Assembly (NCBI GenBank): GCA_015501585.1
Contig: JADNRY010000245.1
Coordinates: 28,844 to 92,843, forward strand
From: Rhodocollybia butyracea
Lineage: Eukaryota; Basidiomycota; Agaricomycetes; Agaricales; Omphalotaceae
Length of the DNA stretch: 64,000 bases
Direction of reading: 5' to 3'
The notes beneath the pieces were generated by a model. That model searched no databases. It was not told the DNA's origin and worked only from the letters and a program-made list of their open reading frames with translations. Positions 1 through 64,000 of the stretch are shown piece after piece (within the stretch, counting starts at the first letter, position 1; every line of letters begins with the position of its first letter). The position numbers and the translations under genes were made by a program.

Positions 1-2375
1 TTCCCTTTCTCCCCGCATCAAAACTTGTCTCCTGTGTTATATGCTCAAGAGACCCGACGTTTGTGTCTGGTACCTCATTTAATGCACTGTAAATATAATT
101 AGCACTAACCCGAGCCCCAGGGTTCGGGGACCAGCAGAGTTCAATAAGTGACCAAATGTCGTCAGGACACCATACTCCTTCAGGTCTTTTTGGGCGCAGT
201 CCACGCACAACAGCAAACATGACAGCAATATCCGTCTTGTCCGAAAACGGTATATTGCACGAAAGAATCTGTTTGTTGAAAGTAATCTCGTCAACTACAT
301 TTATATCAACAGAAGAATATTACCAACCTCAACAACCGTACACGCAAACGCATATACATCCCTAGGGCGTTGATCCTGGACAGGGGTTTCCTTGAGCGCT
401 CCCCAGTATGTATTAATTCGGGGGCCATCCAGCGAATAGCTCCTCGCGTGCCATGACCAGTCGTGGTCAGCAGTCCCGTCGATTCCGAGGCAATGGCAAG
501 TCCAAAATCGGCCAAGCAACAGTGTCCATCGTCGTTCATCAGGATATTCGCCTGAAAGCTACCAGCTCAACAAATCGTGATAAACAGATATTAGAAAACG
601 CACTCCGCGCACGTCACCGTGAACAACAGGCGGTTTTAAAGAATGTAGATAATTGAGACCATCAGCAATCTCCATTATCTGCGGTAAGTCCAAGTTAATT
701 TTGAAACTGTAGATGACTCGGAGGTGGGACATACCACAGATCGTCTGTTGTGATCAGGGTGGTTTTTCAGATACATTACAATATCACCGTTGGACATCCA
801 TGGAGACACTAGGCAGAACCCAAACAAAGTCGTGTTGACACCAAAGAATGGAAGAACATTTGGGTGGCGTAATTGACGCCAAAGTAGAGCTTCATGGCAG
901 AAATCCTTTCAGATGTTGTATATGTTTTAATATAGATTGTGATGAGATGATCAGACATACAGATTCCAGCTTCTGGCGAATCTGTTCATCACTTTCCAAA
1001 TACATACGTAAAACCTTCAAACATACAGCCTGGTCGCCTATTTTCCCTCTCCATATGTCCTTGAATTTACTCATCAGCATAAGAATATCAATTGAGTGTA
1101 GGGGTGCACCTACTGCATAGCCCCCTCCACGGATAGGATGTGGGTGTTCCCGCTGGATGTTGACCAGGAAAAGAGAAGGAGGGAGGACATTGAAAGCTCT
1201 GGATAATTTTCGGATACAGGCCATACACAAACTTCTGTACTTCTCATCAGTATTTGCCCAATCATCCAGTTCCTGTCAGAAATGATCAACCCAACTCTGA
1301 TCGACAATTTGAACATTAACACACACCAACTGTAGGAGTTCCATAACACACGGGATCCAAAGGTGATGCACCTGCATTAGTGTCCACACTGGGTCGGGTG
1401 ATGCTAATACAGTGCGCAGGTCGGCGCTAGATGTCACTTCAGAAGTAGTGAACTTGGATTCAATAGCTGTTGGTACAATTTGGGATTCTCCCGGAGCTCC
1501 CGATGATATGATCACGAAAATGGTGTACCCCTTTTTAGGATGGAGCACCGGAATTACATTAGTAGGTGGGGACCTCAATCGAAAGACAGAGGGAAGGCCT
1601 TCAACCAGGTGGGACTTGAGATAAAAACTTTCAGGTAAACTTTGAAGAAGGCGGATTGTGTCTAAACTACAAATTCATAGCCGGTGAGCTCGGAACACTG
1701 CCAGGATCATTGGACAAACCTTCCTTTCCACCACTTACCAATGGCGTTCATAATGAGCCTATGGTCCTCCGTACCCACATGCCACTCGATATCCCTGAGA
1801 TACTCTTTGACTTCGAAATCACCAAGTTGCGGCCACGATTCTGCCAGAAAGTCGTGGCTATATTCGCTGTGAGCATCATCCTCATGTTGAGGTGATGAGG
1901 CTCGATCCGAATCCGAGTCAGGATTGAAATCAAGGAAAGAAGACCTTTCGGATGAGCTATACATCAAACTTGGTGATATTGTTGGTTTGGCAGACACAGA
2001 TGAGCTCCTGGAAGAAGACTGGCCCTTCTCTTTCTGTCTCTTTGTACTAGATGAATCTCGTGAATAAGCATGACTAAAGCGACCTTGCCCATTGCTTGGA
2101 TGCTCCCACTGAGTAAGAGGAGAATTGGGCTCAAAAGCAATGGAAGAATGATTTGAGAATGTAGGAGAAGGGGGAAAGCCAGTGAATATAGAAGAGCTAT
2201 CCGAGTCATAGCTGTCATCTGCAAAAGAGCTGAACGGAGAATCGACCAATGGTGCTACGTCCTGACTCGGGGCTAAGCTCAAACTCCATGGAGGAGAAGA
2301 TGACAATCGATTTCCACTGCTATCATCAAACTCATTAGCCTGGAATGGATTTCTTGGCGAGATAGGCGGGGGCAT
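1..2375 (-). pseudogene. Tyrosine-kinase-like protein kinase, tandem copy 1, frameshifted, cut by window edge
   Basis: Reading leftward from an ATG at 2375 (MPPPISPRN), a Ser/Pro-rich N-terminus leads into a roughly 250-residue region shared only with copy 2, then a kinase domain. Visible kinase parts are the glycine loop GGGYADIWRG (joined over an intron ending near 1060), the lysine in VCLKVLR, LRHPNVLPFFGV, catalytic loop HGDVRGAN (split by an intron near 540-600), DFGLAI, GTRGAIRWMAPELI and a C-lobe with DVYAFACTVVE. Introns are about 45-55 bases. HGDxRGxN in place of HRDxKxxN is common in expanded agaric TKL kinases. Compared with copy 2, one base is missing near 375-380, between the APE motif and DVYAF, which breaks the frame just after the activation segment. 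The 3' end lies outside the window. A sequencing error cannot be excluded for a single indel. Confidence 0.75.
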
Positions 2376-3234
2376 GGATGTTTGAAAGAAGGTGGATACG
2401 TGGGAGATTAACTTGATTGAATTTTTATAGCTCGGAAGAACATGATTGGAGCGCCTGCAAGTTGCGGTACGACTTACCGTTCGAGTAACTACTACTAACA
2501 ATAATCATCTTTCTGGGTACTTAGTGGCATGACCGGGTAGCGTCCAGAGCCTATACGACGAGCATGAAACCCTCCTACTTACCGCCACTGCGCTGGTCAG
2601 TAGTTGGCATCTATCATGGGCTCTCTGATATCCGCTTGGGACGCTGATTTACAACCAGGCATGTCATAGCACAGGATTTTGGAATGGCTTAATTGGAATC
2701 AATTTAAATCTCGACCTTTAAGGTTCTGGACGAGTCTGGGGTCTGACTGGGATTGTCGTGACTGGTATTTATATAAGGGTGTTCAGTGTCAAATGAGAGA
2801 GTGTACAAAATTTACCATTCCAACATCTCTAGTTACAGTCTACGCTATATTCAATTGGCAGACCTTTAAATCTTCGAAAGAATAACATCAGTGTCCAACG
2901 CAAAAGATTGAACAGATGATGAACAAACTGCCATGGACCATGAGCTCGAGCTCGTCGCGCGACTCGGCAGTCTCCGTTTATATTTTTTTACAACTCGGTT
3001 ATCGCTCTATTTGAAATCGTAGAGACAACTTACTGAAGCAGCTGAGAAGGTTGCAAGTAGAAGAATAAATTGCCGTCTTAGAGAGTCACAGCATCAATAA
3101 ATGGAGGAATAGTAGCCTTTAAGGTCGAATCTGGGTTGGAGTGGCAGTTCTTCCGGAAGAGACGCAAAGGAGTAGAGGTTGAGAGAAAAAAGAGGTAAGC
3201 TCCATTGTATAAAAGAGAAGTCTTATCCTTATGC
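2376..3234. other. Intergenic; duplicated upstream region of the kinase copies
   Basis: No gene of its own. The first part and the stretch around 2790-2895 match the DNA upstream of kinase copy 2 (5640-6110), so the tandem duplication covers kinase plus upstream flank. On the minus strand, 2862-2895 resembles the last codons of the peroxiredoxin gene at 6082-6912 (ending SKI stop versus SKL stop). This suggests the duplicated unit once included the end of that gene. The relic is too short for certainty. Confidence 0.4.
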
Positions 3235-5635
3235 TCACCTACACCTTTGCTGAACGAAAACTTTTGAAAACCCCTTCAATCTACCTCCTTCCCTTCTGCA
3301 TTTTCTCCATGCATGCGAGCTTGTTTCTCGTGTCAAGTGCTGATGAGTATCTGACTCAATGGTCCCATTGGCTACCTCATTCAACAACGTACTCCAAATA
3401 TAATTAGCACTCACCCGGTCCCCAGGTTTCTGGGACCAGCAGAGTTTGATGTCATCCGGACACCAAACAGCTTCAGGTCTTCCAGGCCGCAGTCCATTCA
3501 CAATAGCAAACATGACTGCAATATCTGTAGGTTTTTCCGAAAATGGGACATTGCACGACAGAATCTAAAAAATCTTGTCAACCACATTCATATCAACAGA
3601 TGAATGATAGTCAAAACCTCAACAACTGTACACGCAAATGCATATACATCCCTAGGACGCTGATCCCGGGACAAGGGTTTCTTAGCCTGCTCGCCAGTAT
3701 GTATTAGCTCGGGGGCCATCCAGCGAATAGCTCCTCGCGTGCCATGACCAGTCGTGGTCAGCAATCCTGTCGAACCGACGCAATGGCGAGTCCAAAATCT
3801 GCCAAACAACAGTGTCCGTCGTGGTTCATTAGGATATTCGCCTGAACACCTGCCAGCTCAACAACTCGTGATGAAATCAAAAGAAAAACAACGCACTCCG
3901 CATACGTCGCCGTGAACAACAGGCGGTTTTAAAGAATGTAGATAATTGAGGCCATCAGCGATCTCCATTATCTATGGGAAGTTCAAGTTGTATTTGAGAC
4001 AATAGACGAGGCGGCACTGGCACGTACCACGGATCGTCTGCCGTGATCAGGATCAGATACGTCACTATATCACCGTTGGACATCCATGGAGACACTAGGC
4101 AGAACCCAAATAAAGTTGTGTTAACACCAAAGAATGGAAGAACATTTGGGTGGCGTAATTGACGCCATAGTAAGGCTTCATTACAGAAATCCTTCTGGAC
4201 GTTGCACACGTTATCAGTAGATCGCAAAGGAATGACCGCAAACTTACCGATTCCACCTTCTTGCGAGTCAACTCATCACTTTCCAAGTATGTACGCAAAA
4301 CCTTCAAACATATAGCCTGGTCGCCTATTTTCCCTTTCCATATGTCCTTGAATGTACTGTAAGCGAACACAAAAAACTAATCCTTTATAAGGGTGCACCT
4401 ACTGCAAAGCCCCCTCCACGGATGGGATGTGGATGCTCCCGTTGGATATTGACCAGGAAAAGAGGAGGGAGGACATTGAAGGCTCTGGATAGATTTCGGA
4501 TACAGGCCATACACAAACTTCTGTATTTTTCATCAGTATTTGCCCAATCATCAAGTTCCTATGGTCGGGAATGATCAGCCCAACTCTGATCGACGATTTG
4601 AACATTAACACACACCAACTGTAGGAGTTCCATAACACACGGAATCCAAAGGTTATGCACTTGCATTAGTGTCCACACGGGGTCGGGCAATGCCAATATA
4701 GAGCGCAGGTCGACACTGGATGTTACTTCAGAAGTAGTGAACTTAGATTCAATAGCTGTCGGAACAATTTGGGAATCCCCCGAGGCTCCTGATGATATGA
4801 TCACGAAAATAGTATGTCCCTTCTCAGGATGGAGCACCGGGAGTACATTAGTAGGTGGAGACCTCAATCGAAATACAGAGGGAAGGCCTTCGACCAGGTG
4901 GGACTTGAGATAAAAACTCTCAGGTAGACTTTGTAGAAGGTGGACTGTGTCGAAACTATGAATTCATAATCGGTAAATTGGAAACCCCAAAAAGAGTAAT
5001 GGACATACATGCCCTCCCACCATTTATCGACGGCGTTCATGATCAGCTTATGGTCCTCTGCGCCCACCTGCCACTCAATATCCCTAAGGTATTCTTCGAC
5101 TTCTAGATTACCAAGTTTCGGCCGTGATTCTGCCCACAAATTCCGGCTGTATTCATCATCCTCACATTGAGGTAGAGAGGATTGATCCTGAACAAAGTCA
5201 AGGAACGAAGACTTTCCGGATGAGTTGTACGCCAGACTCGGTAATATCGGTTTGGCAGACAAGGACGAGCTCCCGGACGAAGGCCGACCCTTCCCTTTCT
5301 GGCTTTTTGTACTAGACGGATCTCGTGATTGAGCGCGACTAACGCGGCCTAGTAGTAATCCAAATTCACCATCGCTTGGGTGCTCCCCCAGAGTAAGAGT
5401 AGGACTGGGCTCAAAAGCAATGAATGAATGATTCGAGAGAGTAGGAGAAGGGGGAATGCCAGCAAAAATAGAGGAACTACTCGAGCCGTGCCCAGAGGTG
5501 TTATCCGTGATAGAGCTGATAGGAAAGTCTACCGAAGGTCCTACATCCTAGGCCAAGATAGCCACTGATTTTCATCGTTACTGTCAAGCTCATGGGCTTG
5601 GAAACTATTTCTTGGCAAATTAGGGGGGGGGACAT
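3235..5635 (-). pseudogene. Tyrosine-kinase-like protein kinase, tandem copy 2, multiply disrupted
   Basis: Same architecture and intron positions as copy 1: N-terminal Ser-rich part, shared middle region (EYLRDIEWQVG, then LVEGLPSVF-type sequence), GGGFADIWKG glycine loop, ICLKVLR, LRHPNVLPFFGV, HGDVCGAN, DFGLAI, RWMAPELI and C-lobe ending at the stop near 3235. Lesions relative to copy 1 are: (1) a run of nine C just after the start at 5635, one base short of the copy 1 frame; (2) a small deletion with an in-frame TAG near 5548; (3) one base missing near 3775-3780, right after DFGLAI, which shifts the activation segment out of frame. The Arg of HGDxRG is replaced by Cys. The unit repeats about 3.2 kb from copy 1. 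Confidence 0.75.
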
Positions 5636-12547: not shown

Positions 12548-12807
<260 letters not shown>

Positions 12808-34807: not shown

Positions 34808-35225
34808 CTACGTAGGTATCGCATCCTTCAAAACAACTACTTTATCTCGAAACTTCTCCCTTATTGCAGTCCAGTACGGAACACATAACAAATGAATACA
34901 GTAGGCAAACGAGCTGGGTATCGCATCTTTCGAAACAGCTACTTCCTCTCGAAACTTCTCCCTTATTGCAGCGCAGTGCGGAACACAAGCCAATAACAAG
35001 TGGATAACAGTAGGCGAAGGAGCTACTAGTACAATAATCATCCCAGGCCAACGCATCGTGCGGAACACAAGCCAATAACAGTGAAAACGGTAGGCGAAAG
35101 AGCTACGATAATCATTCCAGGCCAACGCGTAGTACGGAACGGAACGTAAGCCAATAACATGAATGTGGTAGGCGAAAGAGCTACGATAACCGTTCCAATA
35201 GCCTTGGTCCGCCTACCTACGGTAT
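34808..35225 (-). repeat. Composite tandem repeat array
   Basis: Read on the minus strand, units contain GTAGCTCTTTCGCCTAC, a variable middle, TATTGGCTTGTGTTCCG and GCGTTGGCCTGGAATGATT, about 75-90 bases each. Toward 34810 a second unit type takes over (CTGCAATAAGGGAGAAGTTT followed by GATGCGATACC), sharing the TTGCCTACTGT/ATGTGTTCCG core. Units differ by substitutions and small indels. Confidence 0.75.
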
Positions 35226-58219: not shown

Positions 58220-59370
58220 TTAAGTCCTGTACTTTATATCATACATGTGTCTACATTCCATGCAACTCAGAAGAGTTTACCACAATGCTTTTCCACCTTA
58301 TATAACCTCAAGCTTCAAGTCATGGGCCCATCCGGCAGTGTACGCGAAGAGTCATAGAGAAAATGAAGCTGAAGTAGTAGGGCATTAGTCGGCGAGGAAG
58401 CATAGGCCATCCGCACAAGTATCTGATATAGTATCTAAGTGGAGTCTTATAGCAGAGACGTACCTCATTCTTATCTGAATTCTAATCAGGTTTGCTATTG
58501 GGAACGGCGGCGGAAGATCTAAGGCCATGGATAAGTATCACCCAGAAATTGTGGCGGTAAGGGCAAACGCAAACGGATAGTAATTGTTTATCCTACTAGT
58601 CGAGGAATTTCTCGGGGAGAATTCGCCGTCAGCGAACTTGAACTCGTCATCTGTAGCCAGGGCAAGTGACAAAATGAGATGATCAGAGCAAAGGGGCTTA
58701 CCGGAAGTGTCAGGAGATTCTGCACGGATGTAGGCTGATGTTCCTGGGAAAATTCCATGGACTGGGAGTCATCGTACTCTAGCCGCTGGTTGCTTGCAAC
58801 AGTGGGAGCTTGAATTTTTGAACGCCAATGATCTGCCTATTGGCGCGTACTACATCGCTAAATTGGCGGAAATCATAAATACGCTTGCATCAGTTACAAT
58901 CATCTCACGGTCAATACTGCCCCATATAATACATGGTAAGCGGCTACGATGGATCCGCAATCTCGCAGGTCTTTGTACTGCCTTGTGATATTAGTATGAT
59001 AATTGCCAATCATTATACAGGCATATGGACTCGTGATATTCATACCTGGTCCATACATGAGAATAGGATCGAATAACAAGAAAATCAGACAATATATGAG
59101 CTTCTACTGAAAGTGGGTCATCATCATGCTTCTACGAGGCGGGCCCCGTTCATCCGTATTATCGTACATTGTCTGCTTGCGGAAAATTTATTCTTCCCCC
59201 CCCCCAGTACATTGTTCAATTGAATCTGAAACTGACTGACATGCGGATGATCTAGCATTTTACTACTCTCAACTACATTTGATGGCTCAGTTTGCACCTT
59301 GGCGCAAGCGCTGTGGCTCTCCCATGCAAGGATACTACGACTTGTCAGATGCTGGAAGTAGCCCTGTTCG
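58220..59370. other. Subtelomeric DNA without a gene
   Basis: Nothing recognisable. It ends where the first internal telomeric repeats begin. Confidence 0.45.
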
Positions 59371-59387
59371 GGTTAGGGGTTAGGGGT
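59371..59387 (+). repeat. Internal telomeric repeat, block 1
   Basis: GGTTAGGGGTTAGGGGT, G-rich strand in the same orientation as the chromosome end. Confidence 0.8.
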
Positions 59388-59469
59388 GGTCCTGACAAAA
59401 ACGACGAGTGAGCGAAGCGAACGAGGCGTTTTTGGAAGGGCCAAGTTCGTTAGTTTGTTGGGTAAGAGC

Positions 59470-59546
59470 GAAAACAGCCAACAGGGTGTAAGATACTTTC
59501 TTACACCAAATCCTGTTTCGCTTTTATAGCTCATCAGGGCTGTTTC
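59470..59546 (-). ncRNA. Hammerhead ribozyme (open at stem I)
   Basis: On the minus strand every core element is present. Stem I 5' arm GAAACAGCC (59546-59538) is followed by CUGAUGA (59537-59531), a 3-bp stem II GCU/AGC with a five-base loop (AUAAA), and GAAA. Stem III is ACAGG paired with CCUGU, capped by an extension that forms a hairpin GGUGUAAG/CUUACACC. The cleavage base U lies at 59480, followed by the stem I 3' arm GGCUGUUUUC (59479-59470). Stem I pairs over nine positions. Predicted cleavage lies between 59480 and 59479. Hammerheads in Penelope-like elements are described (Cervera and De la Pena, 2014); there they sit in the terminal repeats and are thought to process the RNA ends. 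Confidence 0.85.
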
Positions 59547-59731: not shown

Positions 59732-59961
59732 CTAACTCGTAATCCTAAATAGTAAGACCGAAGCCCGAGAAGACGGACTTAGCATCAAAGCCACTTGACA
59801 TCTCATGGGGTTAGCACAAAACGCCGAGATCCGCCGGGGACAGCTGTCGATCAAAATCTTACGTTACCTTAAGCGCGCTACCTGTTTAGCGCCCCAGGCG
59901 TCTACGGGTCACTAGCCGACAGGCCGAGAGAAGAGACGCCCAAACTACGGGCCTAACTTAC

Positions 59962-60051
59962 CGGTTAGGGTTCGGCACGTAGTGCCGGTTAGGGTTAGGT
60001 TAGGGTTACCGGGCCGTAAGGCCCAGTTAGGGTTAGGGGTTAGGGGTTAGG
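59962..60051 (+). repeat. Internal telomeric repeat, block 2, interleaved with hairpins
   Basis: TTAGGG and TTAGGGG units interrupted by two perfect hairpins: CGGCAC-GTA-GTGCCG (59973-59987) and GGGCC-GTAA-GGCCC (60011-60024). The G-rich strand points toward the telomere. Confidence 0.75.
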
Positions 60052-60108
60052 CTATATGAATTGACATATTAGCATGTGTTCGTCATTTATTAGATGACAG
60101 TACGTACG

Positions 60109-60138
60109 TTTAGGGGTTAGGGGTTAGAGTTAGGGTTC
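60109..60138 (+). repeat. Internal telomeric repeat, block 3, at the element 3' end
   Basis: GTTTAGGGGTTAGGGG, then TTAGAGTTAGGGTT. On the element strand this is AACCCTAA, so the element RNA would carry a sequence able to pair with a telomeric G overhang. Confidence 0.75.
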
Positions 60139-60528: not shown

Positions 60529-62157
60529 TCACACAGTGTGATAGACGAAGTCAAGGTCTCCAGGTACGGCGCCACCAACATTGCGGGAAGGACCAGCATC
60601 TTGGTCCGACATATCCGCATCCATGTCAATAGATGGTGCCTGGGAGATTTCTTTTACAGCATCTTCGTCCAGGGTTTGTATTACAATTTTCTTCCAAGAA
60701 CTTGCAAGGTCGAAAAGGTTAGTCGTACGTTTCCGAGAGACTAACCACCGAGCTTTGGTAAAATTGGTTTTGCGTATATCCGGCACAGTTACATCCTTCA
60801 AAGCAGTGCCTAGGTCGTCCCTCTCCACAATTAAAGTTTCAAAGTCGCCCGAGCGATCAACTAAGTCTGATGCTGCGTGTTTATACGCCGGATAAAGGCC
60901 CGTATACGAGCCAGTTTCCGCGTGTGTCTACCACGAATTCCAATAATCCGTAATACGTTTCCCAAGTTCTTTCGCATTGAAATAATCCCATGCAGTGTTA
61001 AACTCGGACTTAAGAACAAGAACGGTATCTTCCGTGTCCTGTTTGTCTTTGGTTGAGAGTCGTTTCTCCCACCGTTCTTTCTTGTATTTATTCAGCCAAG
61101 AATAAACTGCTTGGGTAGGATAACCACGCTTTACATACAAGGCCGCCAGGCCTGATATGGCGTCTAAGTAGTGTGACTGAGTGCTACTAAGTGTGGCTAA
61201 ACGGGACATTTCTCCTATGAAAGTTCCACGTCGAACATCGAGTGGATGAGCACTGCCCCAAGGTATTCTTTCTTGATGGGATTTCGCTTTCCGAAACGGA
61301 AGATGTTGAATTGCACCATTGTCGTCGATATATATGGTCATATCCAAGAACGTACCGTAATTATTACGACATTCCCATTCTATTACACAGCCATCGAATT
61401 GTATTGTCTTACTACAAATATCTAGCGCCTCGGCTGCAGTTGAGGCATAAACTAGGGCAAGACAATCGTCGATGTATCTACCGTAATATAAAAATTCCGG
61501 TAAATCCATTACTCCTGCTTGGTGCTCGAACCAAAATCCGAACAAGTTAGCCAAGTCCGGACTACAGGCTACGCCCATAGCGAGTCCCTTCTTTTGACGG
61601 AAGTAATGGAAGTCTTTGTATTTAGTTACAAATAACTGTGTGACGAGATCTCTACAGCTTACGTCAAGGCATTTCATGAACAAAAGTAGTTTACTTTGGT
61701 CAGCTGTATCTAATGGCACACCATTCTGATCATTCTCGATGTTGTAAAAATGGCAAAACATTTCTATGACTACTTCGAAACATCGATCTAATGGAATGTT
61801 CGGATAATATGCTACGACATCTCCGGTAACTATGTACAGTTGTCGCATCGGATCTCGTTTGATCTTACTTAATTTAATCGCCAAGTCCTTGGACCCATGA
61901 ATAATGGTAGGCGCCGATAATATAATCGGTTTAAGTTTCTTACTAATGTATTTGGCAGCGGGATTCTGTATAGCACTATGACAGGGTATTATTGGTCGAC
62001 CTTTCACTGGTTCCTTGTGTATCTTTGGGATACAATAGAAGGTCGGTATTTCGTGCTTATCGGAGTCTTTAGGGGTAATTCTATGTCGGAAAAACTTATC
62101 AAGTTGATCAAATACCTCCGGCTCTGCCTCCGCCGTATAGCCGGTTAGGGCTTCCAT
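60529..62157 (-). pseudogene. Penelope-like reverse transcriptase, 5'-truncated, with one internal TAG
   Basis: RNA-dependent DNA polymerase of a Penelope-like element. From the ATG at 62157 the visible motifs are FYCIPKIHK (residues 40-48), GRPIIP, motif A GDVVAYYPNIP (Asp 113), motif B KKGLAMGVACSPDLANL (189-205), motif C YGRYIDD (225-231, catalytic YIDD) and NYGTFLDMTIYID (266-278). A frame stop (TAA) lies just upstream, inside CCCTAAG, a telomere repeat, so the N-terminus including the usual Penelope N-terminal extension is lost at a telomere junction. The frame ends at TAG (60928-60930) after DYWNSW. The same frame then stays open another 132 codons (THAETGSYTGLYPAYKHAAS, TNFTKARWLVSRKRTTNLFD, an acidic linker, end at 60529). 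That continuation looks protein-like, so the TAG is probably a single point lesion (from CAG or TGG), or a read-through site. Confidence 0.85.
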
Positions 62158-62163
62158 GGCGTC

Positions 62164-62172
62164 TTAGGGTTA
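62164..62172 (+). repeat. Telomere unit at the truncated 5' end of the reverse transcriptase
   Basis: TTAGGGTTA directly abuts the point where the coding frame begins. Confidence 0.65.
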
Positions 62173-62996: not shown

Positions 62997-63493
62997 TCAG
63001 AATGCCATTCGCTTCAATCGTCGAACCAAACGAGGGATTTCCGAGGCGGAGAACGTAAATAATTCGATATGGCGCGTCCCACCTGCGAATCAATTAAGAA
63101 AAGTTGATATACGGGACGGAAACGCGTACAGGTAAGGCAAACGTTTCGAGGACGGTCCAGGGATAAGATCTCCAGATGCAAATGAAGCAACGCTTCTAGG
63201 AAAACATTGCAAGAAGATTCAAAAGCTAATCTCAAAGACCTACCAGTTCGACGTCTACACGTCACTTTTCTGTACCACAGTACCTCCCGAATGACCTGGG
63301 GACACTTCTGGTCGTGTTGGGCCAATCGTTTCTTTAGATTTTTCGTCATCCCGGCCTTCACAATTGTCGCGTTATTGGCGACGTTCCGCTCACGGAGTAA
63401 ATAAACGTAGCCCTTGCCATCGGATTTAGAGACAGGACGAGATTCACGACGAGAAATGAGGTCCCAGAGGTCGTTTGTTCCGCGCCGGACCAT
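62997..63493 (-). CDS. T5orf172 / GIY-YIG-like domain protein, small, intact
   Basis: ATG at 63493. Two introns, 63196-63243 (GTAGGT to CCTAG) and 63083-63129 (GTACGC to TCGCAG), give a 133-residue product. It has GYVYLL (28-33), KAGMT (46-50), Arg 56, His 60 and Cys 64 in MTKNLKKRLAQHDQKCP, then EALLHLHLE, a CLTCGTRHIELFTF block across the second intron, and ends RLVRRLKRMAF. The pattern (G-Y-V-Y, K-x-G-x-T, R-x-x-x-H, x-EALxHLxL, C-x2-C-x-x-x-H-x-E-x-F) is the T5orf172 branch of the GIY-YIG-like fold, common as single-domain fungal proteins. Whether it cuts DNA is unknown. Restored frames at both splice joins show it is intact. It starts 336 bases from the telomere array and is transcribed away from the end, on the same strand as the neighbouring Penelope element. 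Confidence 0.8.
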
Positions 63494-63828
63494 GAGTAAT
63501 TCAAAGTTTTAATGCAGCGATGGTGCTGACGCGACACTCGTCAGAAAGATTCCGTCCAGCGAGAAATGAGTGGCGTGTCGCGGCGCGTCAATAGGGGCGC
63601 CTAACTGTTGCGGTGCATACCTGGGGAAATTAGCGCCCACAGGCCCGACACGGGTCAAATTCAGCTCGTCCGGTGAGTGCGGGCATAATATAGTGATGTT
63701 CGGGCATGCGGCCGCACGTTGATCTAATAGGGTCATTTGGGTTGCGTTTTGAACGACTCGCACATGCGATAAGATGTGTGTGTGCGCCCGGTGAGTTGAA
63801 CTTTAAAATGCTACCGCGTAGACGGGGG
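63494..63828. other. Promoter-side spacer between the last gene and the telomere
   Basis: No gene. GC-rich, with no TATA box that I can support. Confidence 0.4.
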
Positions 63829-64000
63829 GTTAGGGGTTAGGGGTTAGGGGTTAGGGGTTAGGGGTTAGGGGTTAGGGTTAGGGGTTAGGGGTTAGGGGTT
63901 AGGGTTAGGGTTAGGGGTTAGGGTTAGGGTTAGGGGTTAGGGTTAGGGGTTAGGGTTAGGGGTTAGGGTGGGTTAGGGTTAGGGTTAGGGTTGGGTTAGG
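63829..64000 (+). repeat. Telomere array, mixed TTAGGG/TTAGGGG
   Basis: Continuous units to the window end, G-rich strand 5' to 3' toward the end. The inner part is mostly TTAGGGG, the outer part mixes in TTAGGG and a few GGGTGGG/GGGTTGGG variants. This marks the chromosome end or a point very near it. Confidence 0.95.

Follow-up and report, generated by a model that had tools for sequence, protein, structure and literature searches.

What does a self-cleaving RNA do among telomeric repeats? The question is raised by a stretch of 64,000 nt from the basidiomycete Rhodocollybia butyracea (contig JADNRY010000245.1, hereafter the window), where a first-pass annotation described a complete hammerhead ribozyme and proposed that its cleavage could define an RNA end for priming or templating at chromosome ends. 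We analyzed the motif itself, the element that carries it, and its copies and relatives elsewhere in the genome.

A type I hammerhead ribozyme on the minus strand

The motif comprises the following features:

59471..59546, minus strand: hammerhead ribozyme of type I topology, with stem I open (descriptor match, folding)
59546-59538, minus strand: 5′ strand of stem I, GAAACAGCC (read from the letters)
59479-59471, minus strand: 3′ strand of stem I, GGCUGUUUU (read from the letters)
59479..59480, minus strand: predicted cleavage site, between U17 (59480) and G1.1 (59479) (descriptor)

The CUGAUGA core begins at 59537 on the minus strand, and GAAA, the A15.1-U16.1 pair, and H17 are all present, with three helices surrounding the core in the topology of a hammerhead whose stem I is open. 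Stem I has 9 bp, the outermost a G-U pair, stem II has 3 bp (GCU/AGC) and a 5-nt loop, and stem III consists of 4 bp (ACAG/CUGU) and, beyond a 5-nt bulge, a hairpin of 9 bp closed by a loop of 5 nt. The first-pass annotation was accurate on these points, as the full core and three stems lie on the minus strand where it had placed them, and both the nine stem I pairs and the extra hairpin on stem III are seen.

A descriptor (CUGAUGA, stem II of at least 2 bp, GAAA, stem III of at least 3 bp, UH, and stem I of at least 5 bp) matched the whole window exactly once. In 6,670 simulated windows with the same dinucleotide content, it gave 35 lax matches and 0 at strict thresholds, which were set from the observed motif (stems of at least 9, 3, and 4 bp), and a smaller simulation gave 0 matches in 60. 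The folding energy of the motif was better than that of 200/200 shuffles (z −4.85); the minimum-energy fold, at −26.8 kcal/mol, is not the hammerhead, and the active fold lies 1.5 kcal/mol above it at −25.3.

Covariance models, which had been proposed as a check, gave weak matches at the site with RF00008 and with a model of our own, but none that was over a cut-off or significant. No hammerhead reached the Rfam gathering cut-off in the window, the region, or the related loci, and the RF00008 match at the site (15.7 bits) is in the wrong register. Genome-wide, RF00008 gave 12 weak matches, none from the window's family, and the best Rfam scores below cut-off came from a locus of a second family described below (32.9 bits) and from a type III locus (32.2 bits); RF00163 gave no matches genome-wide and was equally silent in its 14 control genomes. 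When built from the second family and run with filters off, a covariance model ranked the site first in its 34-kb half-window (12.1 bits, E 0.78); with default filters it missed the site, and it recovered 0/14 other loci holding the window's family. No relatives were confirmed in viral or prokaryote contigs outside the R. butyracea genome, and a search of solved structures gave no match. The motif is a genuine type I hammerhead and is probably catalytic.

The host is a telomere-associated Penelope-like element

The surroundings of the ribozyme hold the following features:

60529..62163, minus strand: 5′-truncated reverse transcriptase (RT) frame of 411 aa followed, past an in-frame stop, by 132 aa (protein homology)
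59388..59479, minus strand: 3′ tail from the cut to the telomere-complement repeats, containing UCGCUCUUACC (copy alignment)
59397..59433, minus strand: inverted repeat in the tail, AAAAACG...CGTTTTT (by eye)
59370..59387, plus strand: telomeric repeats at the 3′ junction of the element, whose RNA reads CCCCTAACCC (letters, alignment)
~59960..60052, plus strand: internal telomere-like repeats and two small hairpins, kept in 8/8 copies reaching the tract, a count that takes in the window's own copy
60109..60138, plus strand: second internal telomere-like tract, kept in 7/7 copies reaching the tract
62164..62172, plus strand: short telomeric repeat where the element is truncated on its 5′ side (letters)
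63826..64000, plus strand: terminal TTAGGG(G) array at the contig end (repeat scan)

As the first-pass annotation had claimed, an RT frame on the same strand ends at 60529, about 1 kb upstream of the ribozyme. It has 342 homologues in total, the best at 59% identity, which identify it as an RT of the Penelope-like element (PLE) type; among the 120 matches listed, the named relatives are all fungal (Armillaria, Mycena, Leucoagaricus, and others), some of them named reverse transcriptase, and the Pfam model RVT_1 matches the frame below its cut-off only. RT protein matches were found at 6 loci of the window's family. In the copy on C983 the RT frame is open over 789 aa, and the order runs from terminal repeats through the RT, internal tracts, ribozyme, and tail to CCACCCCTAACCC and other DNA with an open frame. 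No endonuclease domain was detected by Pfam, and GIY-YIG was absent from the 789-aa frame at E 0.1. The similarity of the window element to C983 and C201 stops at 62163. Outside the RT frame, between the repeat that caps the element at 62164 and the terminal array, lies a T5orf172 or GIY-YIG-like frame (63015-63508, minus strand), and a protein matching it is listed for R. butyracea.

The ribozyme segment and the upstream element are colinear, with the spacing seen in the window, in 8/8 copies that reach the upstream sequence (the window's included), which places the ribozyme in the 3′ UTR of the element and makes the outer arrays part of its sequence. The earlier description of a segment bounded by telomeric arrays therefore has to be revised, as the inner repeats are the 3′ junction of the element and the outer tracts are conserved internal parts of it. 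The ribozyme sits in the 3′ UTR of a telomere-associated PLE that apparently lacks an endonuclease.

Copies of the family span the predicted cleavage site

A search for the same motif elsewhere, as the first-pass annotation had advised for other subtelomeres, was productive. The 571-base ribozyme segment has at least 20 copies in the genome, and the 20 that were aligned in sense orientation share one body with variable 5′ ends. CCCTAA-type repeats follow the 3′ end in 17/20 (the exceptions are L011, L012, and L013), and 11/20 lie within 6 kb of a contig end on the predicted telomere side, where 1.4 were expected; on the opposite side the number is 1/20, with its C201 neighbour at 6.06 kb. A telomere-complement junction at the 3′ end and a location at chromosome ends are what characterizes telomere-associated, endonuclease-deficient PLEs. 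Some copies are arranged head to tail, for example a pair on C1326 and another at the left end of C455. The tail inverted repeat is absent in L010, L012, L013, L014, and L020, and L011 stops inside it. At least three different 3′ ends follow the ribozyme among the copies (59388-59435; L010-L014 and L020).

The hammerhead core is intact in 18/20 copies, the damaged ones being L011, with a G-to-A change in the core, and L014, with an extra A. Variable columns number 4/76 in the hammerhead vs 75/495 outside it, as raw counts uncorrected for coverage. In the upper stem III hairpin, one G-C pair has become U-A through a double change in L011, L012, and L013, and its covariation score was reached by 57/500 shuffles; as this is apparently one event, and given the shuffles, the covariation of stem III is suggestive only.

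The telomere-complement end is reached about 90 nt downstream of the cut, and all 20 copies have sequence on both sides of the cut, with none ending at U17, indicating that their templates were uncut there. No copy ending at the cut was found in either family, and tail-only copies of the window's family number 0/20. The search for its tail start gave 44 matches vs 14 for the control; the 19 with at most one mismatch are all among the 20 copies, and the 20th, C455:132, has a one-base insertion. A match with two mismatches on C827 was rejected as chance because it does not extend.

A second family and its tail-only insertions

Three distant RT matches (26-30% identity), on C503, C1338, and C1140, belong to a second Penelope-like family, and a hammerhead lies about 420-565 nt downstream of each. 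A core pattern matched the genome 45 times, against 11 times when reversed; the window's family accounts for 18 of the 45, the second family for 9, and a type III kind for 3. The second-family hammerhead mostly has a GUC cut site, with 5 bp in stem I, 4 bp in stem II, and at most 5 bp in stem III, with exceptions in C583, where stem I is broken, and C456, where stem III is shortened. After the ribozyme, UCGCUCUUACC is common to the window's family and the C503-type members of the second family, and a variant of it occurs in four other members (C756, C1094, C1140, and C1338). The C503 copy (L053:2117-4490) is compact, with 2.37 kb between 22-bp target duplications and a frame with stops, and has a single hammerhead at its 3′ end; at its 5′ end, no ribozyme and no clear tail copy were found. 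By eye, a second-family fragment was also noticed in L054 (~3180-3290 and 5290-5440), after telomeric repeats, between inverted repeats, and far from a contig end.

With C503 as the query, three matches started exactly at G1.1 (C439, C606, and C49). A pattern for the second-family tail gave 43 matches; the 22 with up to two mismatches were used (a control gave 7 at up to three), and the 21 with three mismatches, of which C610, C558, and C561 were read, were left out of the counts. Matches with the same flanks were merged as alleles (C494/C1196, C49/C606, C825/C950, C235/C977, and C491/C456), which reduced the 22 matches to 17 loci. Nine copies at seven of these loci are tail-only insertions, without the 5′ part of the ribozyme. 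The insertion on C439 (L072) starts exactly at G1.1 and matches C506 at 100% identity across 55 nt; the 62-bp insert has a 2-bp duplication, its G1.1 is preceded by two additional bases (CA), and the allele on C975 (L101) lacks the insert. The C49/C606 insertion also has its start at G1.1, but should GTGG be part of a 9-bp target duplication, the start shifts to +5. The remaining five of the seven loci (C953, C494, C483, C523, and C113) have their starts immediately outside stem I, at about +7 to +12, and the C494 insertion carries a 17-bp duplication.

In the stretch from −60 to +12, 5′ ends, their positions read by eye, occur at 11 loci. Seven fall in +1 to +12 (P 6e-4 if uniform), one at −32, and three between −48 and −44, close to where stem I begins on its 5′ side; C583 and C825/C950 start near the 5′ edge of the ribozyme. 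For two ends exactly at +1, P is 0.01, or 0.14 when C439 only is counted. The tail pattern reaches starts only as far as +12; a longer pattern (8 matches) and a BLAST-type tail search (18) gave none beyond this point except a split copy on C291, and the BLAST-type search is of limited reach, as it missed C494 and C523. An extra 3′ stretch (GGGTTCGCCTTCGGCTCACC and similar) is present in C49, C483, and C494 and was seen in none of the ribozyme-bearing copies read, so another source element may have produced these three.

The 5′ ends of the second family gather at the edges of the ribozyme. A start at +1 would be explained by run-off at the cut end, and starts at +7 to +12 would be compatible both with a cut RNA and with arrest of the RT when it meets a folded stem I. 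The tail-only insertions suggest, without proving, that the ribozyme is cut or folded in vivo. Among the titles and abstracts listed by searches of one open-licence paper collection, we found no report of PLE insertions starting at a hammerhead cut.

Other features of the genome

The core pattern also revealed a type III hammerhead-like motif in three copies (two on C672 and one on C750), with stems I and II closed and a GUC cut site:

L068 ~967-1018, plus strand: type III hammerhead-like motif (core pattern)
L069 659-715, minus strand: type III hammerhead-like motif (core pattern; RF00008 32.2 bits, below cut-off)
L070 ~894-944, plus strand: type III hammerhead-like motif (core pattern)

An open frame without a Pfam match is conserved among the three loci, and in L069 it precedes the motif by about 170 nt. 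Some stretches of the assembly occur on contig pairs with the same flanks, as if both haplotypes had been assembled. The window holds a run of about 224 A (12563-12786) and a 78-bp tandem repeat of 2.9 copies (34975-35197). Locus L012 (2911-3079 and 2506-2603) has a long hairpin matching a microRNA model below cut-off, and a nearby tRNA match over cut-off contains an insert that may be an intron.

Relation to known Penelope-like elements

Gladyshev and Arkhipova reportedly described in 2007, under the name Coprina, endonuclease-deficient telomeric PLEs of basidiomycetes, which would resemble the window element in basidiomycete host, RT type, and telomere attachment. Cervera and De la Pena reportedly found in 2014 that fungal PLE hammerheads are stable as monomers, so a stem III of such length has perhaps been described before. 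The first-pass annotation called the stem III extension unusual for Penelope hammerheads; it is indeed longer than in the reviewed ones, but among fungi it is possibly nothing new.

For Agaricus bisporus, a basidiomycete, PLEs at the ends of chromosomes are in print (PMC7473861), and hammerheads of PLEs have likewise been published (PMC6155905, PMC7761336). The hammerheads reviewed in these last two papers and the window ribozyme are alike in being of type I, inside a PLE, and without obvious loop-loop contact. The reviewed ones are minimal, mostly without helix III, and lie in flanking repeats, whereas the window ribozyme has a long stem III and was found only at the 3′ end, in a family for which no complete 5′ end was seen.

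A close published arrangement is that of Terminons, giant PLEs of bdelloid rotifers with hammerheads at their 3′ telomeric ends (PMC6431247). They share with the window element a PLE RT, 5′ truncation by telomeric repeats, and a 3′ hammerhead followed by reverse-complement telomeric repeats. The ribozyme is immediately upstream of those repeats in Terminons, whereas here it precedes them by about 90 nt, and the window element also differs in its bulged long stem III, its fungal host, and its single RT frame (in C983, up to the terminal repeats), with no giant size seen. Giant size, accessory ORFs, and a ribozyme abutting telomeric repeats, by which Terminons are recognized, were not seen in the window element.

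The GIY-YIG endonuclease of canonical Penelope elements is apparently lacking as well, unlike in PAc, the Poseidon element of Anolis, which has one (PMC11167929). Both PAc and the window element carry a PLE ribozyme, but that of PAc is at the ORF start and that of the window in the 3′ UTR. In that study uncut RNA was the dominant substrate for PAc insertion, and public reads showed no RNA ending at the cut. The window ribozyme thus appears to be of a kind already known, differing in its long bulged stem III, its tail of about 90 nt, and the finding of a ribozyme at the 3′ end only.

A hammerhead that may compete with retrotransposition

As all copies found in the window's family derive from uncut RNA, cleavage would compete with retrotransposition rather than prepare its template. 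The explanation we favor, and consider on balance probable, is that a hammerhead in the 3′ UTR, itself probably catalytic, would act as a brake or in clean-up. The G-rich chromosome end would pair with the CCCTAA tract at the 3′ end of the RNA and prime reverse transcription. Copying ran through tail and ribozyme, and in some of the 20 copies through the internal tracts into the RT, with variable 5′ stops. Cleavage some 90 nt before the RNA 3′ end would part the priming tail from the coding body, and because cutting would separate the two, cutting and insertion would be mutually exclusive, in agreement by analogy with PAc, where uncut RNA dominates. Cleavage may then act as a brake, remove read-through RNA from head-to-tail arrays, or see little use. 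Where the ribozyme was cut or folded, the tail alone may have been copied and inserted, as the second family suggests. A bolder version, which we put forward tentatively and regard as doubtful, holds that the hammerhead does cut in vivo as a switch against retrotransposition, that the RT inserts the bare tail and leaves cut-ended fossils, and that the ribozyme-tail module is common to telomeric and interior families.

Two further explanations are unlikely, and we give them about equal weight. The hammerhead could trim read-through or tandem transcripts, a cut in the 3′ UTR of an upstream copy setting the RNA 5′ end of the next. The head-to-tail copies on C455 and C1326 would fit such trimming, which has likewise been proposed for retrozymes and canonical Penelope repeats, with hammerheads in flanking repeats in the published models (PMC6155905, PMC7761336). 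However, C503 has neither a 5′ ribozyme nor a clear 5′ tail copy, and among the 11 loci with 5′ ends between −60 and +12, a start at the cut is seen in C439 and possibly C49 alone, both of them tail-only. The hammerhead could instead be a folded landmark at which the RT binds or pauses, with cutting weak or protein-dependent. The Anolis PAc ribozyme requires protein to cut, and insertion in vitro does not depend on cutting (PMC11167929); starts at about +7 to +12 in five of the seven tail-only loci, and near the 5′ edge of stem I at three others, also accord with a landmark. The exact G1.1 start in C439, and perhaps C49, would be left unexplained by it, and the catalytic core has been kept in 18/20 copies.

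The proposal of the first-pass annotation, that cleavage creates an RNA end priming or templating at chromosome ends, draws on the telomeric location and the telomere-complement repeats downstream of the ribozyme, but we consider it highly improbable, as some 90 nt separate the cut from the telomeric end and 20/20 copies span the cut, none ending at U17. A chance resemblance or dead relic, in keeping with Rfam scores below cut-off and weak covariation, is the least credible reading of all in view of the 0 strict matches in 6,670 simulated windows, the core intact in 18/20 copies, and a second family bearing its hammerhead at a like place.

Returning to the competition between cleavage and retrotransposition that we favor, tail-only insertions alongside copies from uncut templates in one mushroom genome make cutting in vivo testable. 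If the ribozyme does part the priming tail from the coding body, an element that lengthens chromosome ends would carry its own built-in limit.
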